The translations under genes and the position numbers were made by a program. 64,000 bases of DNA from Pseudomonadota bacterium (GTDB lineage: Bacteria > Pseudomonadota > Gammaproteobacteria > Pseudomonadales > Moraxellaceae), in the NCBI GenBank assembly GCA_021804565.1, contig JAJZHK010000002.1, positions 1-64,000 on the forward strand, written 5' to 3'. Positions 54,848 through 61,751 of this stretch are shown piece by piece. A model generated the notes under the pieces. The model was not told the origin of the DNA, searched no databases, and was given only the letters and a program-made list of their open reading frames with translations. How positions within the stretch are numbered: the first letter of the stretch is position 1; every line of letters begins with the position of its first letter.

Positions 54848-56234
54848 GCTTGGCGCGCGTCAGCAGTTGATCGAGCAGGAACAAGGCCTGATCGATCTCA
54901 TCATCGCTGATATGCAAAGAGGGCGCCAGGGTGATGACATTCTTGTAGTAGCCACCGACATCGAGCACCAAACCCATCTTCTCCCCCTTCCAGTCGAGGT
55001 CACCGGAGAGGCCGATATGAACCATGCGATCCAGCAGTTCCCGGTCAGGCGTATAGCCATCCGGTTTACAGATCTCCGCACGCAGGGCCAAACCCAGGCC
55101 ATCGACATCACCGATCTCGGGATGACGCTTTTGCAGATCCTGCAAACCGGCAAGAAAATGGGCTCCGGCGCGCATGACCCTGGCCTCATAGTCCTCCTCT
55201 TCGAGCATCTTCACCACTTCCAGCCCGAGGGCCGTCCCCAGCGGATTGGAGGCAAAGGTGGAGTGCGTGGATCCTGGCGGGAAGACCGTCGGATTGATCA
55301 GCTCTTCACGGGCCCACAGACCGCCGAGCGGGTTGAGACCATTGGTCAAGGCCTTGGCGAAGACCAGCACATCCGGAGTAACCCCGAAATGTTCGATCGC
55401 CCACATCTTGCCGGTACGGTAAAAACCCATCTGTATCTCATCGACGACCAGCAAAATACCGTGTTCATCGAGCACTTTCTTAAGCCCGGTGAAGAACGTC
55501 CTCGGCGGCACGACGTAACCACCGGTACCCTGGATGGCTTCGATGTAGAAAGCCGCGTACTCCGACTGACCGACCTTGGGATCCCAGACGCCATTGTATT
55601 CCGTCTCAAATAGACGGGCGAATTCGCGAACACACTTTTCGCCATACTCATCTGCGGTCATACCCCGCGGGCGGCGAAAAGGATAGGGAAAAGGAATGAA
55701 CTGAGCCCGCTCACCGAAATGGCCGAAGCGCCGGCGATAGCGGTAACTGGAGGTGATCGCCGATGCGCCCAAGGTACGGCCATGATAGCCGCCTTCAAAG
55801 GCGAACATCAGGCTCTTGCCTTCACGGGCATTGCGCACCAGCTTGAGGGAATCTTCGATGGACTGCGAGCCGCCCACATTGAAGTGGACACGTCCGTCAA
55901 GACCAAACTTGCTCTTCATGCCGACAGCGATACGTTTGGCCAGTTCGATCTTGGTCGGATGCAGGTATTGGCTCGCCACTTGCGGTAAGACGTCGATCTG
56001 CTTTTTGAGCACCGCATTGAGACGCTCATTGGCGTAGCCAAAGTTGACCGCCGAGTACCACATCTGCAGATCCAGGTAGGGAATACCGTAGGGATCGTAC
56101 ATATAGCTGCCTTGGCAGCGCTCAAAAATCTTGGGCGGATTGACATAGTGCACCGTATCCCCAAATGAGCAGTATTTCGCTTCATCCGCCAGCAGCGCAG
56201 CCTGCTCGCGATCTATATCTTCACGCATGACCAT
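54837..56234 (-). CDS. Class III PLP-dependent aminotransferase
   Basis: 465 aa fold-type I aminotransferase. The active-site Lys is in VFAKALTNGLNPLGG, the PLP phosphate-binding stretch is NVGGSQSIEDSLKL, the aromatic stacking region FEGGYHGRTLGA, and the cofactor Asp lies in VVDEIQMG. Class III enzymes move amino groups from the omega position of diamines, ornithine, beta-alanine and related compounds. The start is ATG 56234 or 56228, both near GGATGG. First gene of a coupled operon ending in a ureohydrolase-like protein, suggesting synthesis of an aminated or guanidino compound. Confidence 0.93.
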   Translation of the reverse strand: MVMREDIDREQAALLADEAKYCSFGDTVHYVNPPKIFERCQGSYMYDPYGIPYLDLQMWYSAVNFGYANERLNAVLKKQIDVLPQVASQYLHPTKIELAKRIAVGMKSKFGLDGRVHFNVGGSQSIEDSLKLVRNAREGKSLMFAFEGGYHGRTLGASAITSSYRYRRRFGHFGERAQFIPFPYPFRRPRGMTADEYGEKCVREFARLFETEYNGVWDPKVGQSEYAAFYIEAIQGTGGYVVPPRTFFTGLKKVLDEHGILLVVDEIQMGFYRTGKMWAIEHFGVTPDVLVFAKALTNGLNPLGGLWAREELINPTVFPPGSTHSTFASNPLGTALGLEVVKMLEEEDYEARVMRAGAHFLAGLQDLQKRHPEIGDVDGLGLALRAEICKPDGYTPDRELLDRMVHIGLSGDLDWKGEKMGLVLDVGGYYKNVITLAPSLHISDDEIDQALFLLDQLLTRAKREH

Positions 56235-56520
56235 CCCATCCTATTGGTACAGCCCGGCATAGTGCACCGGCAATATGACCTTCTTGTGCATGAGATATTG
56301 AGATCCTGTGGAGCCGCGTGATGCAGTCGTCGCTCGACGCTGCGCCGTTATCACCGGCCAAGCACGATCGCTGACAGGGTCGGGCCGGCAAGCTCCAGTC
56401 GCAACAGCAAAGTTTGCTCTGCAAGCTGGGCAAAACCGGCATAAAAGCTCAGAATCATCGGAGTGACGGTGACCTGGCGGCCGCCTCGACACGCTGACCA
56501 CCACATTGCAGAGCCCAGCC

Positions 56521-58818
56521 ATGTCTCCCAGCCGATGGATCAACCTTCTCCTCCTCAGTGTCGCCACGCTGACCCTGCTCAGCGGACTTCTGCTGGCTGC
56601 CAGGGGCCAGCCGGCATGGGCCGCCCATCTCTGGCTGCTGGGCGCCCTGCCGGTCATGCTGGCCCTGCTCATCGGCATGGCCAGAACCCTGGCACGCGGT
56701 GAAGGTGGCCTGGATCTGCTGGCGGTGGTCGCGATAGGCGCAGCTGCGTTTCTTGGCGAGATGCTGACGGCTGAAGTGATTGCGCTCATGCTGGCCAGCG
56801 GCCGCGTGCTTGAGGATTACGCCGAAGGCCGCGCCCAAAGGGCCATGACGGCTCTGTTGCAAGGGGTACCGACCAGCGCCTACCGCTACGAGCACGGGCA
56901 ACTGGTGCAGGTTCCCCTGGCCGCACTACAGGTGGGCGACCGCCTGCTGGTCCGCGTGGGGGAGGTACTGCCGGTCGATGGTACCTTGCTGGCAGCAGCT
57001 GAGCTGGATGAATCGACACTGACCGGTGAGTCTCAGCCGGTCCACTATGCAGCAGGCCAGATGGTGCGCAGTGGTAGTCTGAATGCGGGGGCTGCTTTTG
57101 AGCTGCTGGCGAACACCACCGCGGCGGCCAGCACCCTGGCCGGTATCGTTCGCCTGGTCGAATCGGCGCAACACAGTCGGGCACCTGCGGCGCGACTGGC
57201 GGACCGCTACGCACTGCTGTTTGTTCCCTTCGCCTTGGGCTTGGCCGGTTTGGCCTGGTGGCTGTCCGGTCAGGTCATGCGTGCCCTGGCGGTGCTGGTG
57301 GTGGCGACGCCCTGCCCCCTGCTCTTGGCGGTTCCGGTGGCCATCGTCTCCGGCATGTCCTGCTGCGCGCGACGCGGGATACTGATCAAAAGTGGCCGTG
57401 CCCTGGAAAATCTTGCGCGCGCCCAGACCATCTTCTTTGACAAAACCGGGACACTGACCGGCGGTCGGGCACGGCTGGTCAGCATCGAGACGGCTCCCGA
57501 CATTACCCCGTCGCGAGTCTTGCAACTGGCGGCATCCCTGGATCAGGCCGCCAACCATGTCATCGCGGAGGCTGTGGTCTTGGCCGCCCGGGAAAAAAAC
57601 CTGCCGCTGAGCCTGCCTGGCGATCTGAGCGAGCAGGCGGGTGCCGGCGTGAGCGGCATGGTGGACGGCCTGCGCATCAAGGTCGGCACCTGGAACTACG
57701 TGACGGCAGCGATCCATCCACCCGACTGGGCCCTGCGGCTTCTGCCGCGTCTCGGCCAAGAGGGCAGCTCAGGCGTGTTTGTCGCCGTCGATGGCATCCT
57801 CGCTGGCGTCCTGGTATGGGCCGATGAAATTCGTCTGGAAACCCCTCGCGCCCTGCGCCAGTTGCGTGCTGCCGGTATCCAGCGCACGGTCATGCTGACC
57901 GGCGACCACGCGGATGTGGCCGAGGCCATAGGCGCGGCTTTGGGCGTCCACGAGGTCATGGCCGAGCAGACGCCGGCTGGCAAATTGGCCGCCATCACCA
58001 CGGCCAAAGCGCAAGCCATCACCCTCATGGTCGGTGACGGCGTCAACGATGCGCCAGCGCTGGCCTGTGCCGACGTCGGCATCGCCATGGGCGCTCGTGG
58101 CGCCGCGGCAGCGGCTGAAGCCGCAGACGTGGTTCTGCTGGTGGATCGTCTCGATCGCCTGGCAGAAGCTATACGTATCGCCCGTCACACCCGCCGCATC
58201 GCCCTCCAGAGTGTCATGCTCGGCATGGGCTTGTCGCTGCTGGCCATGCTGGCGGCTGCACTGGGCGCTTTACCGGCACTGGCCGGGGCGATACTGCAAG
58301 AACTCATCGACGTTCTCGCCATACTCTATGCCCTGCAAGCCCTGCACCTGCCAGGTAGCAAGCCTGTTGCCAGTCTGTCCGCAGCTGAGCTGCAGGCCCT
58401 GAAGGAGGAACACCAGGCGCTGCAACCGCTACTGGCCTCCCTCAGCCAGCTGGCTGAGAAACTCAGCCTGATGCCGGGCCCCGCCATCGTCGCCGCCCTC
58501 AGCGAACTCAATGAAGCCCTGGCAGCACAGCTGCTACCGCATGAGCGCCGCGATGACCTGCAGCTTTACCCAGGCCTGGCCCGCATGCTCGGCGGCGACG
58601 ATCCGATGGCGGCCATGAGCCGCGTGCACCGGGAAATCTTCCTGCTCAGCCGTCGACTGCGCCAGCTCAGCGCGGCTCTTGAGCCGGCAGTTCCGAACGC
58701 TGCGGCGCTGCAGGAGGTGCAAGCTTGCCTGTACAGCCTGAACGCCATCCTCAAGCTGCACTTCTCCCAGGAAGATGAGATCTATCACGCGCTGGGAGAC
58801 GCTCCTTCGGGGGCTTGA
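56521..58818 (+). CDS. P1B-like metal-transporting P-type ATPase with hemerythrin-like C-terminal tail
   Basis: 765 aa. Actuator motif TGES (168-171), TPC transmembrane motif ATPCPLLLAVPVA (Cys265), phosphorylation site DKTGT (Asp307), and GDGVND (505-510) are all present, so it is a functional-looking ATPase. There is no N-terminal HMA metal-binding domain, and the usual CPC is TPC. From about residue 660 a helical tail has His674-Glu675, His703, His747 and Glu751, in the spacing of hemerythrin HHE cation-binding domains. This tail suggests iron or oxygen sensing attached to the pump. No good ribosome site precedes ATG 56521; TTG 56506 is an alternative. Followed by iron-uptake genes. Confidence 0.9.
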   Translation: MSPSRWINLLLLSVATLTLLSGLLLAARGQPAWAAHLWLLGALPVMLALLIGMARTLARGEGGLDLLAVVAIGAAAFLGEMLTAEVIALMLASGRVLEDYAEGRAQRAMTALLQGVPTSAYRYEHGQLVQVPLAALQVGDRLLVRVGEVLPVDGTLLAAAELDESTLTGESQPVHYAAGQMVRSGSLNAGAAFELLANTTAAASTLAGIVRLVESAQHSRAPAARLADRYALLFVPFALGLAGLAWWLSGQVMRALAVLVVATPCPLLLAVPVAIVSGMSCCARRGILIKSGRALENLARAQTIFFDKTGTLTGGRARLVSIETAPDITPSRVLQLAASLDQAANHVIAEAVVLAAREKNLPLSLPGDLSEQAGAGVSGMVDGLRIKVGTWNYVTAAIHPPDWALRLLPRLGQEGSSGVFVAVDGILAGVLVWADEIRLETPRALRQLRAAGIQRTVMLTGDHADVAEAIGAALGVHEVMAEQTPAGKLAAITTAKAQAITLMVGDGVNDAPALACADVGIAMGARGAAAAAEAADVVLLVDRLDRLAEAIRIARHTRRIALQSVMLGMGLSLLAMLAAALGALPALAGAILQELIDVLAILYALQALHLPGSKPVASLSAAELQALKEEHQALQPLLASLSQLAEKLSLMPGPAIVAALSELNEALAAQLLPHERRDDLQLYPGLARMLGGDDPMAAMSRVHREIFLLSRRLRQLSAALEPAVPNAAALQEVQACLYSLNAILKLHFSQEDEIYHALGDAPSGA

Positions 58819-58865
58819 GTCCAATCTAAAGCACCGACGATGAGAGACGGCGCACCGATAGCGCC

Positions 58866-58912
58866 TTGACATGAGCCTCTTAAATGATGAGAATGGTTAT
58901 CGTTAGCACTAT
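58866..58912 (+). promoter_or_regulatory. Promoter with Fur-box-like element before FTR1
   Basis: TTGACA at 58866-58871 is a perfect -35 hexamer; a weak -10 (GAGAAT, 58889-58894) lies 17 bp on. Overlapping it, GATGAGAATGGTTATCGTTA (58886-58905) resembles the 19-bp Fur consensus with GAGAAT and GTTATC half-sites. A repressor there would shut the iron-permease genes when iron is plentiful. The arrangement is visible; Fur binding is inferred. Confidence 0.55.
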
Positions 58913-58926
58913 CATTTGGAGTCGGT

Positions 58927-59739
58927 ATGCTCAGCAGCGCCCTGCTCGTCTTTCGTGAAATTCTCGAAGCCGCCTGTGTCATCTCGGTGCTGGCAGCAGC
59001 CAGCCGCGGTTTACCAGGGCGCGCCGGAATACTCAGCGGCGGTATCGCCTTGGGGGTTCTCAGCGCCGTGCTCCTGGCTTGGCTGATGACAGGCTGGAGC
59101 ACCCATATTCATGGCACGCAGCAGGCGCTGTTCAACGCCGGCACGCTCATCGCCGCCTGTCTGCTGATCACCTGGCATCTCCTCTGGGTGAGCCGCCGCG
59201 GTGCAACCCTGAGCGCCGAGCTGCGTCGTTACGGTCACGACCTGCAGCAGGGCCTGCACCCTCCCCGGGCCCTGGCTATCGTCATCGCCCTGGCAGTCGG
59301 CCGTGAAGGCGCTGAGATCGTGATCTACTTGCAGAGCATGTATGCAGAAGGCGAACCCACCCAGCCCCTGCTCTGGGGGGCCTGTATAGGCTTGCTGGGC
59401 GGATTCCTGTTTTCCTGGCTGATCTACCTGGGCATACTGCGTATGGCCCTGGCGCCGGTATTTCGCATCACCCAGACCCTCTTGCTGCTCGTCGCCGCCG
59501 GCATGTGTGCACGTGCCGGTGCCATTCTACTGCAGGCTGGACTGCTCCCCAGCCTGGGCTCGCGCCTGTGGAACAGCTCAGCGTGGATTGCCAATGACTC
59601 CATCCTCGGACGCGTGCTCAGCACCTTCGTAGGCTACGACGCTCACCCCAGTGGCCTGCAACTGCTGCTGTTTATGGCGACCCTGAGTGCCCTGATCCTG
59701 CTTCAGCGTACAAAACCGTCTTCGGCAACGAACACCTAA
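58927..59739 (+). CDS. FTR1-family iron permease
   Basis: 270 aa with seven hydrophobic segments. Both iron-binding REXXE motifs are present: FREILEA (Arg10-Glu14) in the first helix and GREGAE (Arg126-Glu130). FTR1/EfeU proteins move ferric iron across the inner membrane, usually after oxidation by a periplasmic partner; a cupredoxin-like gene follows 32 bp later. GGAG lies 6 bp before the ATG. It heads a three-gene operon behind a Fur-like promoter. Confidence 0.93.
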   Translation: MLSSALLVFREILEAACVISVLAAASRGLPGRAGILSGGIALGVLSAVLLAWLMTGWSTHIHGTQQALFNAGTLIAACLLITWHLLWVSRRGATLSAELRRYGHDLQQGLHPPRALAIVIALAVGREGAEIVIYLQSMYAEGEPTQPLLWGACIGLLGGFLFSWLIYLGILRMALAPVFRITQTLLLLVAAGMCARAGAILLQAGLLPSLGSRLWNSSAWIANDSILGRVLSTFVGYDAHPSGLQLLLFMATLSALILLQRTKPSSATNT

Positions 59740-59771
59740 ACCCACCTTGATCCCCGCACAGGAGTTTCACC

Positions 59772-60095
59772 ATGCGCGCGCTCAGCATTGGCCTAGCGAT
59801 CCTCGCCGTATCAGCTCAGGCCGAGCCCCGTCCAAGCGTCAGCCTGCAAATCGATGAACAGGGCTTCAGGCCTGGCCTGCTCCAGCTGCACCCGGCCCTA
59901 TCGTACCGCCTGCAACTGAACAACCTCAGCGGCAGGGCCATCGAATTTGAAAGCCCTGATCTCTCCCGTGAGGTCATCGTCCCTGCCCATAGTCAGGTGA
60001 ATATTTTCTTACCGGCGCTTCAACCGGGTCACTATGTCTATTTTGATGACTTTCATCCGCAAAACCGTGGTCAGATCCTGATCCCCTCCACCTGA
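59772..60095 (+). CDS. Periplasmic cupredoxin-like protein of the FTR1 system
   Basis: 107 aa. Signal peptide ends at AQA (residue about 17). The mature part is a beta-sandwich with FRPGLLQLHPALSYRLQL and IVPAHSQVNIFLPALQPGHYVYF, resembling the EfeO-type cupredoxin domain and other small partners of FTR1. Classical type-1 copper ligands are not complete: no Cys is present, so it may bind iron or act structurally. AGGAG precedes the ATG. Confidence 0.78.
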   Translation: MRALSIGLAILAVSAQAEPRPSVSLQIDEQGFRPGLLQLHPALSYRLQLNNLSGRAIEFESPDLSREVIVPAHSQVNIFLPALQPGHYVYFDDFHPQNRGQILIPST

Positions 60096-60111
60096 ACCTG
60101 GGTACCCTGTC

Positions 60112-60840
60112 ATGTTCTTCACTCGCAATATCAAGGCACTGGCATTACCCGGCTGGCTGCTATGGCCAGCCGGCCTGGCCATGGCCAATGACTATATCGT
60201 CTATTCGCCGCTGGTCGTGGCCGGGCAAAACGAGATCGAGTCACGTGCCTATCTGAATCAGGATGGACAAGGACCCGGCCATGGTCTTTGGGAAAACGAT
60301 GTGTCTCTCGCTCACACCCTCAACAGCTGGTGGAAAACTGAAGTTTACGTGCTCGAGCTCGCCGGCGCCCAGCAAACAGCCCAGCAAAGACTCGGCTATG
60401 AGTTTGAAAACACCTTCCAGCTGGCCGAGCTCGGCCGCTACGCCTGGACGCCAGGATTTTTACTGTCTTATGAAAAATCGACACGCGCATCGGTGCCTGA
60501 TCATCTCGAAGCCGGTCCTCTGCTGGAGCGCCAGGATGGCCGCATCCTCCAGGATCTCAACCTGATCTGGGAGCATGAGATCAGCCCCCGCTTTGCCGGC
60601 AAGCCTGGCTTGCGCACCAGCTATAGCTGGCATTTTCGTTATACCGACCTGTTGCAACCCGGCCTTGAAGCCTACCTGCGCCCTAGCGACCAAAGCTATC
60701 AGTTGGGCCCGACACTGCATGGTGAGCTGCCCGGTGCCTCAGGGCATGAGCTTGAATACAGCCTGGGCGTGGTTTTTGGGTGCAACAGCGATGCCCCGGC
60801 GATGACCTGGCTGGCCCATATCGAGTACGAGTTCTTTTAA
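60112..60840 (+). CDS. Putative outer-membrane beta-barrel protein of the iron operon
   Basis: 242 aa. Signal peptide up to about AMA (residue 25), then alternating hydrophobic strands and a C-terminal strand ending LAHIEYEFF with terminal Phe, the usual outer-membrane assembly signal. Interior strands such as LGYEFENTFQL and LRTSYSWHFRYTDLL fit a small barrel of about ten strands. No TonB box or plug domain is seen, so passive diffusion of metal or a structural role is more likely than TonB-dependent uptake. Third gene of the FTR1 operon, before a terminator. Confidence 0.72.
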   Translation: MFFTRNIKALALPGWLLWPAGLAMANDYIVYSPLVVAGQNEIESRAYLNQDGQGPGHGLWENDVSLAHTLNSWWKTEVYVLELAGAQQTAQQRLGYEFENTFQLAELGRYAWTPGFLLSYEKSTRASVPDHLEAGPLLERQDGRILQDLNLIWEHEISPRFAGKPGLRTSYSWHFRYTDLLQPGLEAYLRPSDQSYQLGPTLHGELPGASGHELEYSLGVVFGCNSDAPAMTWLAHIEYEFF

Positions 60841-60865
60841 AAACGACAGCGCGGCTTTCTTGCAT

Positions 60866-60902
60866 GCCTGCCTGACATGGCCTATTGTCGGCGGGCCTTT
60901 TC
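60866..60902 (+). terminator. Intrinsic terminator of the FTR1 operon
   Basis: GCCTGCCTGACA (60866-60877) pairs with TGTCGGCGGGC (60886-60896), with one G-T pair and one bulged T, followed at once by CTTTTCT. This is the most canonical rho-independent terminator in the window. Confidence 0.65.
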
Positions 60903-60920
60903 TGCGAGCGATCATCCCAG

Positions 60921-61751
60921 ATGCTGGAACTGCTTTGCCCCCTCTGCCAGACACCGCTCACAACGCTATCCCCCACCTGGCACTGTCAGCGCGGCCATAC
61001 TTTTGATGTGGCCCGGGAAGGCTATGTGAATCTGCTCCCGGTACAGCATCGACGCAGTCTGCACCCAGGTGACGATGATGCCGCCTTGCAGGCGCGCCGG
61101 CGCTTTCTTGACGGTGGCCACTACGAGCCACTACGGCTGGCCTTGCAGGACATGGTGGCATCCTGCCAGGGGGCGAACTGGCTGGATGTCGGCTGTGGCG
61201 AAGGCTATTACACCGCCACCTTGCACGCTGAGGGGCGCCAGATCTACGGCATCGACATCGCCAAAACCGCCGTACGCATGGCCGCTAAACGCCATCCCAA
61301 CATCCATTGGTTGGTCGCCAGCGCAGCTCGCCTGCCCTGCGCCGCACAAACGCTGGATGCTGTCTGCAGCCTTTTTGCGCCCATCGCACAGGCTGAATTG
61401 TGCCGTGTTCTCAAGTCCGGCGCCTACCTGATCCATGCCACACCCGCCGAGCAGCACCTCCAGCAATTACGCGCCGCTCTGTTTGCCGAGGTCCATCCGC
61501 ACCAGCCGCAGCGGCATCTGCAGGCACTGCAAAAGGACTTTCATCTGGAACATACGCTATGTGTCGAGGCCGAGCTCGATCTGCATGCTGACGCGCTCGC
61601 CGATCTCATCACCATGACCCCTTACGCCTGGGCGGCCAGCGCCGAACGCCGGGCAGAGCTGCTCGCACGTGCCAGGCTGCGCACCCAGATGCAGGTGCAG
61701 CTCAGCTTGCTGCGCCGTCTCGAGACGGATGCGACGCCGCGATCCAATTGA
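60921..61751 (+). CDS. rlmA: 23S rRNA (guanine-N1)-methyltransferase RlmA
   Basis: 276 aa. The N-terminal zinc site is LLCPLCQTPL and WHCQRGHTFDVAREGYVNLL (four cysteines plus His), the SAM-binding motif is WLDVGCGEGYYT, and IYGIDIAKTAVRMAAKR and CSLFAPIAQAE follow. RlmA(I) methylates G745 of 23S rRNA in gammaproteobacteria. ATG 60921 gives the family start. Its last 50 bp overlap the convergent glutaredoxin-like gene. Confidence 0.92.
   Translation: MLELLCPLCQTPLTTLSPTWHCQRGHTFDVAREGYVNLLPVQHRRSLHPGDDDAALQARRRFLDGGHYEPLRLALQDMVASCQGANWLDVGCGEGYYTATLHAEGRQIYGIDIAKTAVRMAAKRHPNIHWLVASAARLPCAAQTLDAVCSLFAPIAQAELCRVLKSGAYLIHATPAEQHLQQLRAALFAEVHPHQPQRHLQALQKDFHLEHTLCVEAELDLHADALADLITMTPYAWAASAERRAELLARARLRTQMQVQLSLLRRLETDATPRSN

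Follow-up and report, generated by a model that had tools for sequence, protein, structure and literature searches.

The stretch of DNA analysed here (the window; 64,000 nt of contig JAJZHK010000002.1, assembly GCA_021804565.1, Moraxellaceae) carries a gene for a P1B-5-type heavy-metal ATPase that extends at its C-terminus into a hemerythrin-like domain. Downstream of this gene, and on the same strand, lie genes for an FTR1/EfeU-like iron permease, a small cupredoxin-like protein, and an uncharacterised protein (Table 1). The pump reading frame starts at an ATG; an alternative in-frame TTG at position 56506 would lengthen the product to 770 a.a. The permease scored 8.5e-39 against the EfeU model NF041756 (NCBIfam), yet fell below the curated cut-off of that model, and the product of the 60112–60840 gene displayed no Pfam match at E ≤ 0.1.

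Table 1. Positions of the pump gene, its motifs, and the downstream features in the window.
Feature	Position (nt)	Strand	Basis
P1B-5-type metal ATPase with C-terminal hemerythrin domain, 765 a.a	56521–58818	+	Open reading frame, Pfam and NCBIfam matches, tree
TPCPL motif, membrane metal site, residues 263–267	57307–57321	+	Invariant, 9/9 alignment rows
DKTGT phosphorylation motif, residues 307–311 (D307)	57439–57453	+	Sequence and alignment
QELID (QExxD), residues 593–597, last TM helix	58297–58311	+	Alignments
Hemerythrin HHE domain, residues 625–757	58393–58791	+	PF01814, ligand conservation, four-helix-bundle model
Sigma-70-like promoter TTGACA-17-GAGAAT before FTR1	58866–58894	+	Consensus scan, 10/12
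Fur-box-like 7-1-7 site TGAGAATGGTTATCG, overlapping the -10	58888–58902	+	3 mismatches to TGATAATNATTATCA
FTR1/EfeU-like iron permease	58927–59739	+	PF03239, 2.8e-29
Cupredoxin-like small protein	59772–60095	+	PF13473, 5.6e-17
Uncharacterised protein gene adjoining cupredoxin	60112–60840	+	Side by side with cupredoxin in two congeneric genomes

The features expected of a P1B-type ATPase are all present in the pump, namely a P-type core, in which Pfam recognised the E1-E2_ATPase actuator domain (1e-37) and the HAD hydrolase catalytic domain (4.2e-24), the DKTGT motif, and an intramembrane xPC motif (as TPC). In NCBIfam, the core scored 507.4 bits against TIGR01525, the general heavy-metal P-type ATPase model (cut-off 346.25), and 454.2 bits, also above cut-off, against the cadmium-family model TIGR01512. 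No HMA domain was found in the pump among the Pfam models at E ≤ 0.1. The TPCPL motif (T263-P264-C265-P266-L267) lies in TM4, and the Q, E, I, and D of QELID are invariant in two alignments (9/9 and 16/16 rows). P1B-1 and P1B-2 ATPases carry a CPC motif, which is absent from the pump, with TPC found instead. The signature of the P1B-5 type is TPCP in TM4 combined with QExxD in the last TM helix; the pump has both, and the aligned relatives agree. The preliminary description of this locus had already read the gene as a heavy-metal ATPase with TPCPL and without an HMA domain, and both points are borne out.

The hemerythrin-like tail

The same description had proposed a hemerythrin-like C-terminal tail from the spacing of His674, His703, His747, and Glu751. 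Pfam recognised PF01814 at residues 625–757 of the pump (E = 3.2e-14; scoring 54.0 bits where the cut-off is 25.3), and this profile matched all 16 aligned tails (that of the window and 15 relatives). The candidate ligands in the tail are H631, H674, D678, H703, E705, H747, and E751. Across 27 aligned tails (the window and 26 distinct relatives), His stands at positions 631, 674, 703, and 747, Glu at 675, 705, and 751, and Asp or Glu at 678 without exception, a full conservation that is favoured because the tailed relatives were gathered partly by profiles of the tail itself. The four residues first named were correctly numbered and are invariant in both the 9-row and the 16-row alignments; H631, D678, and E705, which are equally conserved, had been missed. 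Given the PF01814 match and the ligand conservation, a chance pattern of His residues is ruled out.

The ligand pattern in the window reads H631, H674xxxD678, H703xE705, and H747xxxE751-D752. This follows the variant motif published for the P1B-5 class (H-HxxxE-HxE-HxxxxD; PMC9388753), with Asp678 replacing the Glu of the second motif. The third motif of canonical hemerythrins, HxxxH, is not found, position 707 being Phe; by the motifs given in the available text of PMC9388753, the HxE at this place sets the P1B-5 tail class apart from canonical hemerythrins. Position 752 varies across the 27 tails (Asp, Glu, Leu, or Asn), with Asp in the window, Leu in the Sinorhizobium meliloti pSymA homologue (L034), and Asn in L155. 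As the Asp of the published HxxxxD falls at this variable position (D752 in the window), the exact ligand set is uncertain; judging by the alignment, the fourth motif may instead be completed by the neighbouring, invariant E751.

Modelled alone with AlphaFold2, the tail is predicted to form a four-helix bundle (mean pLDDT 86.0, pTM 0.79) with helices at model positions 13–42 (broken once), 45–81, 89–110, and 119–151, and the same helices appear beyond the last TM helix in the full-length model (pLDDT 78.3, pTM 0.59). The hemerythrin assignment of the preliminary description, which stood or fell with a profile match and a four-helix bundle, thus holds on both counts. A profile built from the 16 tails matched YtfE at E = 4.4e-6 over profile positions 25–116 of 159, not reaching the fourth helix. 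The YtfE/RIC di-iron repair proteins, the best relatives of solved structure by profile, share a hemerythrin-like domain with the tail but are stand-alone repair proteins, whereas the tail is carried on a pump; against the NCBIfam RIC model, the tail of the window pump got no better than E = 0.0059. The single tail sequence returned only a chance-level match among solved structures, and a Foldseek search of the tail model against the PDB returned nothing at E ≤ 0.001, its matches being mostly generic four-helix bundles. With VIA-align, the hemerythrin domain of FBXL5 came 46th (Z = 11.2), and its score was equalled or exceeded by those of designed and FAT-type bundles. Because hemerythrins rank here among generic four-helix bundles, the fold search backs the bundle and not the family.

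Four more hemerythrin-domain matches were noted elsewhere in the same genome (contigs C52, C48, C61, and C39; loci L001, L003, L004, and L005), in open frames of 134–518 residues.

Known relatives and distribution

P1B-5 ATPases that carry a hemerythrin-like C-terminal tail in some members are an already described class (PMC9388753). The tailed form was first characterised in Acidothermus cellulolyticus (Traverso 2010) and then in S. meliloti (Zielazinski 2013), the content of both studies being cited here via PMC9388753, PMC4932525, PMC6044271, and PMC4965479, and the class is treated in a 2022 review. The novelty of the fusion that the preliminary description had implied is thereby lost: as the fusion is already documented, the window gene adds a member to the known tailed P1B-5 architecture, and the arrangement itself is not new.

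According to the available text of PMC4932525, S. meliloti Nia is the only biochemically characterised P1B-5 ATPase, with Ni2+ and Fe2+ as substrates; both metals induce nia expression, and a nia mutant accumulates both. In S. meliloti CCNWSX0020, the same text reports that deletion of nia left tolerance to Cu, Zn, Cd, Pb, and Ni unchanged (for Ni, also PMC6044271), so that an efflux role is not firmly general and a simple resistance role is weakened. Nia (SMa1163) shares with the window pump the TPCP and QExxD sites and a hemerythrin tail with the same ligand positions. The tailed pSymA homologue, 48% identical to the window pump over the alignment, is taken to be Nia, as the tail query matched no other place in the pSymA record, which is without gene labels. 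It has Asp in the second ligand motif, as in the window, but differs in the Leu at 752, opposite the Asp of the window, and in the lack of FTR1 in its fetched flank or elsewhere on pSymA. The A. cellulolyticus P1B-5 ATPase (UniProt A0LQU2), compared by published description and motif, likewise has a hemerythrin-like C-terminal domain but Glu in the second motif, where the window has Asp. A tail-less TPCP/QExxD ATPase of Defluviimonas sediminis (L049) has the same membrane core (51% identity over the matched part) but stops soon after the last TM helix, its end lying 48 residues beyond the QExxD Gln.

A tail-plus-TM profile matched 27 of 398 genomes of the phylum at E ≤ 1e-15, the match covering the tail in nine (own genome included) and the membrane part only in 18, which suggests that the tail is dispensable for the core. 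Within the family, four of 61 genomes have the tailed form, again counting our own. Among the 194 genomes of the order, with up to five candidates scored per genome, 21 matches besides our own at E ≤ 1e-80 carried CPCA (19) or SPCA (2); these are other P1B types, and we ruled them out as members of the same family. Matches to the tail query were present in 77 plasmid records, including those of Sinorhizobium, Cupriavidus, Caballeronia, Rhodococcus, and Streptomyces, and a scan of genome contigs for relatives, which is no census, gave at least 80 loci.

In the tree, the window pump clusters at 100/100 with L153 and L154, both from its own family and ~77% identical to it by BLAST, inside sets of nine and ten tailed rows. 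The "Hr/noHr" labels on the tree came from a narrow pattern that wrongly marked L129–L132 (= L159–L162) as tail-less, their tails being 168–169 residues long with every ligand candidate present, and eight loci were entered twice (L126–L133 = L156–L163); owing to the four mislabelled and eight duplicated loci, the tree was used for placement of the window only and not for counts of gain and loss. L057 is probably another tailed relative (its match runs to query residue 735), but the gene, on a contig of 3.6 kb, is not covered by any single open frame and is absent from the alignments; the L041 row was dropped as a repeat of L035. L040 aligns well in its motifs and tail, but its first ~200 residues align poorly in the 9-row alignment, which may reflect a frameshift in the N-terminal part.

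Tailed P1B-5 ATPases were also seen on named plasmids. In the Klebsiella quasipneumoniae plasmid pC3001-4-KPC (typed conjugative; L036), genes for a VIT-family protein, cytochrome b562, and a cation diffusion facilitator lie near the pump. In the Pandoraea vervacti plasmid pPV15 (L039), the pump lies amid universal stress protein genes and ~3 kb from the hydrogenase maturation genes hypE, hypD, hypC, and hypF. A universal stress protein gene directly adjoins the pump in four tailed loci (L035, L039, L040, and L156), which may point to low-oxygen regulons. Ten pump-near genes in five relatives had no family in common via Pfam.

Neighbouring genes and proposed function

The preliminary description had noted genes for iron uptake next to the pump. 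FTR1 and the cupredoxin gene are indeed there, but their link to the pump is weak, given the promoter-like and Fur-box-like sites of FTR1's own and the absence of FTR1 from the fetched flanks of 26 other tailed pumps. Promoter-like sites numbered 2 in positions 56100–61000 against 1.1 expected, which is not proof of function. For Fur-box-like sites, 0.75 were expected in the window and 3 were present, as many as in 5 of 100 shuffles. Neither site is strong alone; what makes both plausible is their placement within the 108 bases between the pump gene and that of an iron permease. The genome itself encodes one Fur family protein, and FTR1 probably forms a separate, Fur-repressed uptake unit.

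FTR1 was found in none of the fetched flanks of the 26 other tailed loci (BLAST, E ≤ 1e-4 and 1e-3), flanks that were unequal in length (the contig of L043 measures 7.2 kb in all, little sequence follows the gene in L046, and in L153 it breaks off after ~75 bases). Repeating this search at E ≤ 10 with a check for REGxE gave nothing beyond short stretches at chance level and three motif matches that look unrelated. By profile, FTR1 occurs in eight of 29 whole genomes or records, own included; it lies beside the pump in our genome and on contigs other than the pump's in two (G547 and G418), and in the five reached via named loci the flanks examined did not contain it. As, among the flanks fetched, adjacency to FTR1 was found at the window locus alone, the genes for iron uptake beside the pump are a trait of this locus and not a mark of the family, and a conserved operon with FTR1 was rejected. 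Two congeneric genomes (G035 and G211) have neither the tailed ATPase nor FTR1; in both, the aminotransferase, the cupredoxin, and the homologue of the 60112–60840 gene stand together, with ~600–660 bases between the aminotransferase and unknown-gene matches compared to ~3.9 kb in the window. With both absent and the flanking genes kept, the ATPase and FTR1 may have been gained or lost together.

Building on the architecture, motifs, conservation, predicted fold, and tree placement described above, we consider it very probable that the window gene encodes a Nia-like P1B-5 exporter of Fe2+ and/or Ni2+ whose di-iron tail couples the pump to oxygen, redox, or iron status. The pump would drive the export of a transition metal with ATP through the TPCP/QExxD membrane metal site and, by analogy with S. 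meliloti Nia, would carry Fe2+, Ni2+, or both from the cytoplasm. The cytoplasmic C-terminal four-helix bundle would hold a non-heme di-iron centre, probably via H631, H674, D678, H703, E705, H747, and E751, through which pump activity could respond to one of these signals. Going by the named relatives, this substrate, direction, and di-iron binding are the most likely ones. How the di-iron tail acts on transport is a question for the tailed P1B-5 class as a whole, the candidate signals being oxygen, redox, and iron, and the available text of the review (PMC9388753) leaves oxygen/redox or iron sensing undecided; the 27-tail alignment supplies a ligand set for tests of the role of the tail.

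An exporter of Co2+, Zn2+, or Cd2+, with the tail as a mere structural or metal-storage appendage, would agree with the scores of the core above the TIGR01525 and TIGR01512 cut-offs and with the many membrane-part-only matches in the phylum. We regard this as unlikely, as the TPCP/QExxD site and the tail fit the Nia class, with its reported substrates of Ni2+ and Fe2+ (PMC4932525), and the conserved ligand candidates argue for a working metal centre. The adjacency of pump, FTR1, and cupredoxin on one strand, and the absence of both the ATPase and FTR1 from G035 and G211 with the flanking genes retained, could also be read as a single import/export iron cassette in which the tail senses iron to balance both activities. 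This seems quite improbable to us: FTR1 is missing from all 26 fetched flanks, including those of the two family members ~77% identical to the window pump, and the promoter-like and Fur-box-like sites for FTR1 come after the ATPase stop codon. More speculative still, and very improbable in our judgement, is that the ATPase and FTR1 together (~3.2 kb, nt. 56521–59739) form a recently gained iron valve, in which a Fur-repressed importer sits beside an exporter gated by its di-iron tail via oxygen or iron.

In the two congeneric loci (L170 and L171), near-perfect Fur-box-type palindromes were seen by eye before the cupredoxin gene. As these palindromes occur there without FTR1 or the ATPase, the cupredoxin and the gene that follows it may themselves form an iron-repressed unit.
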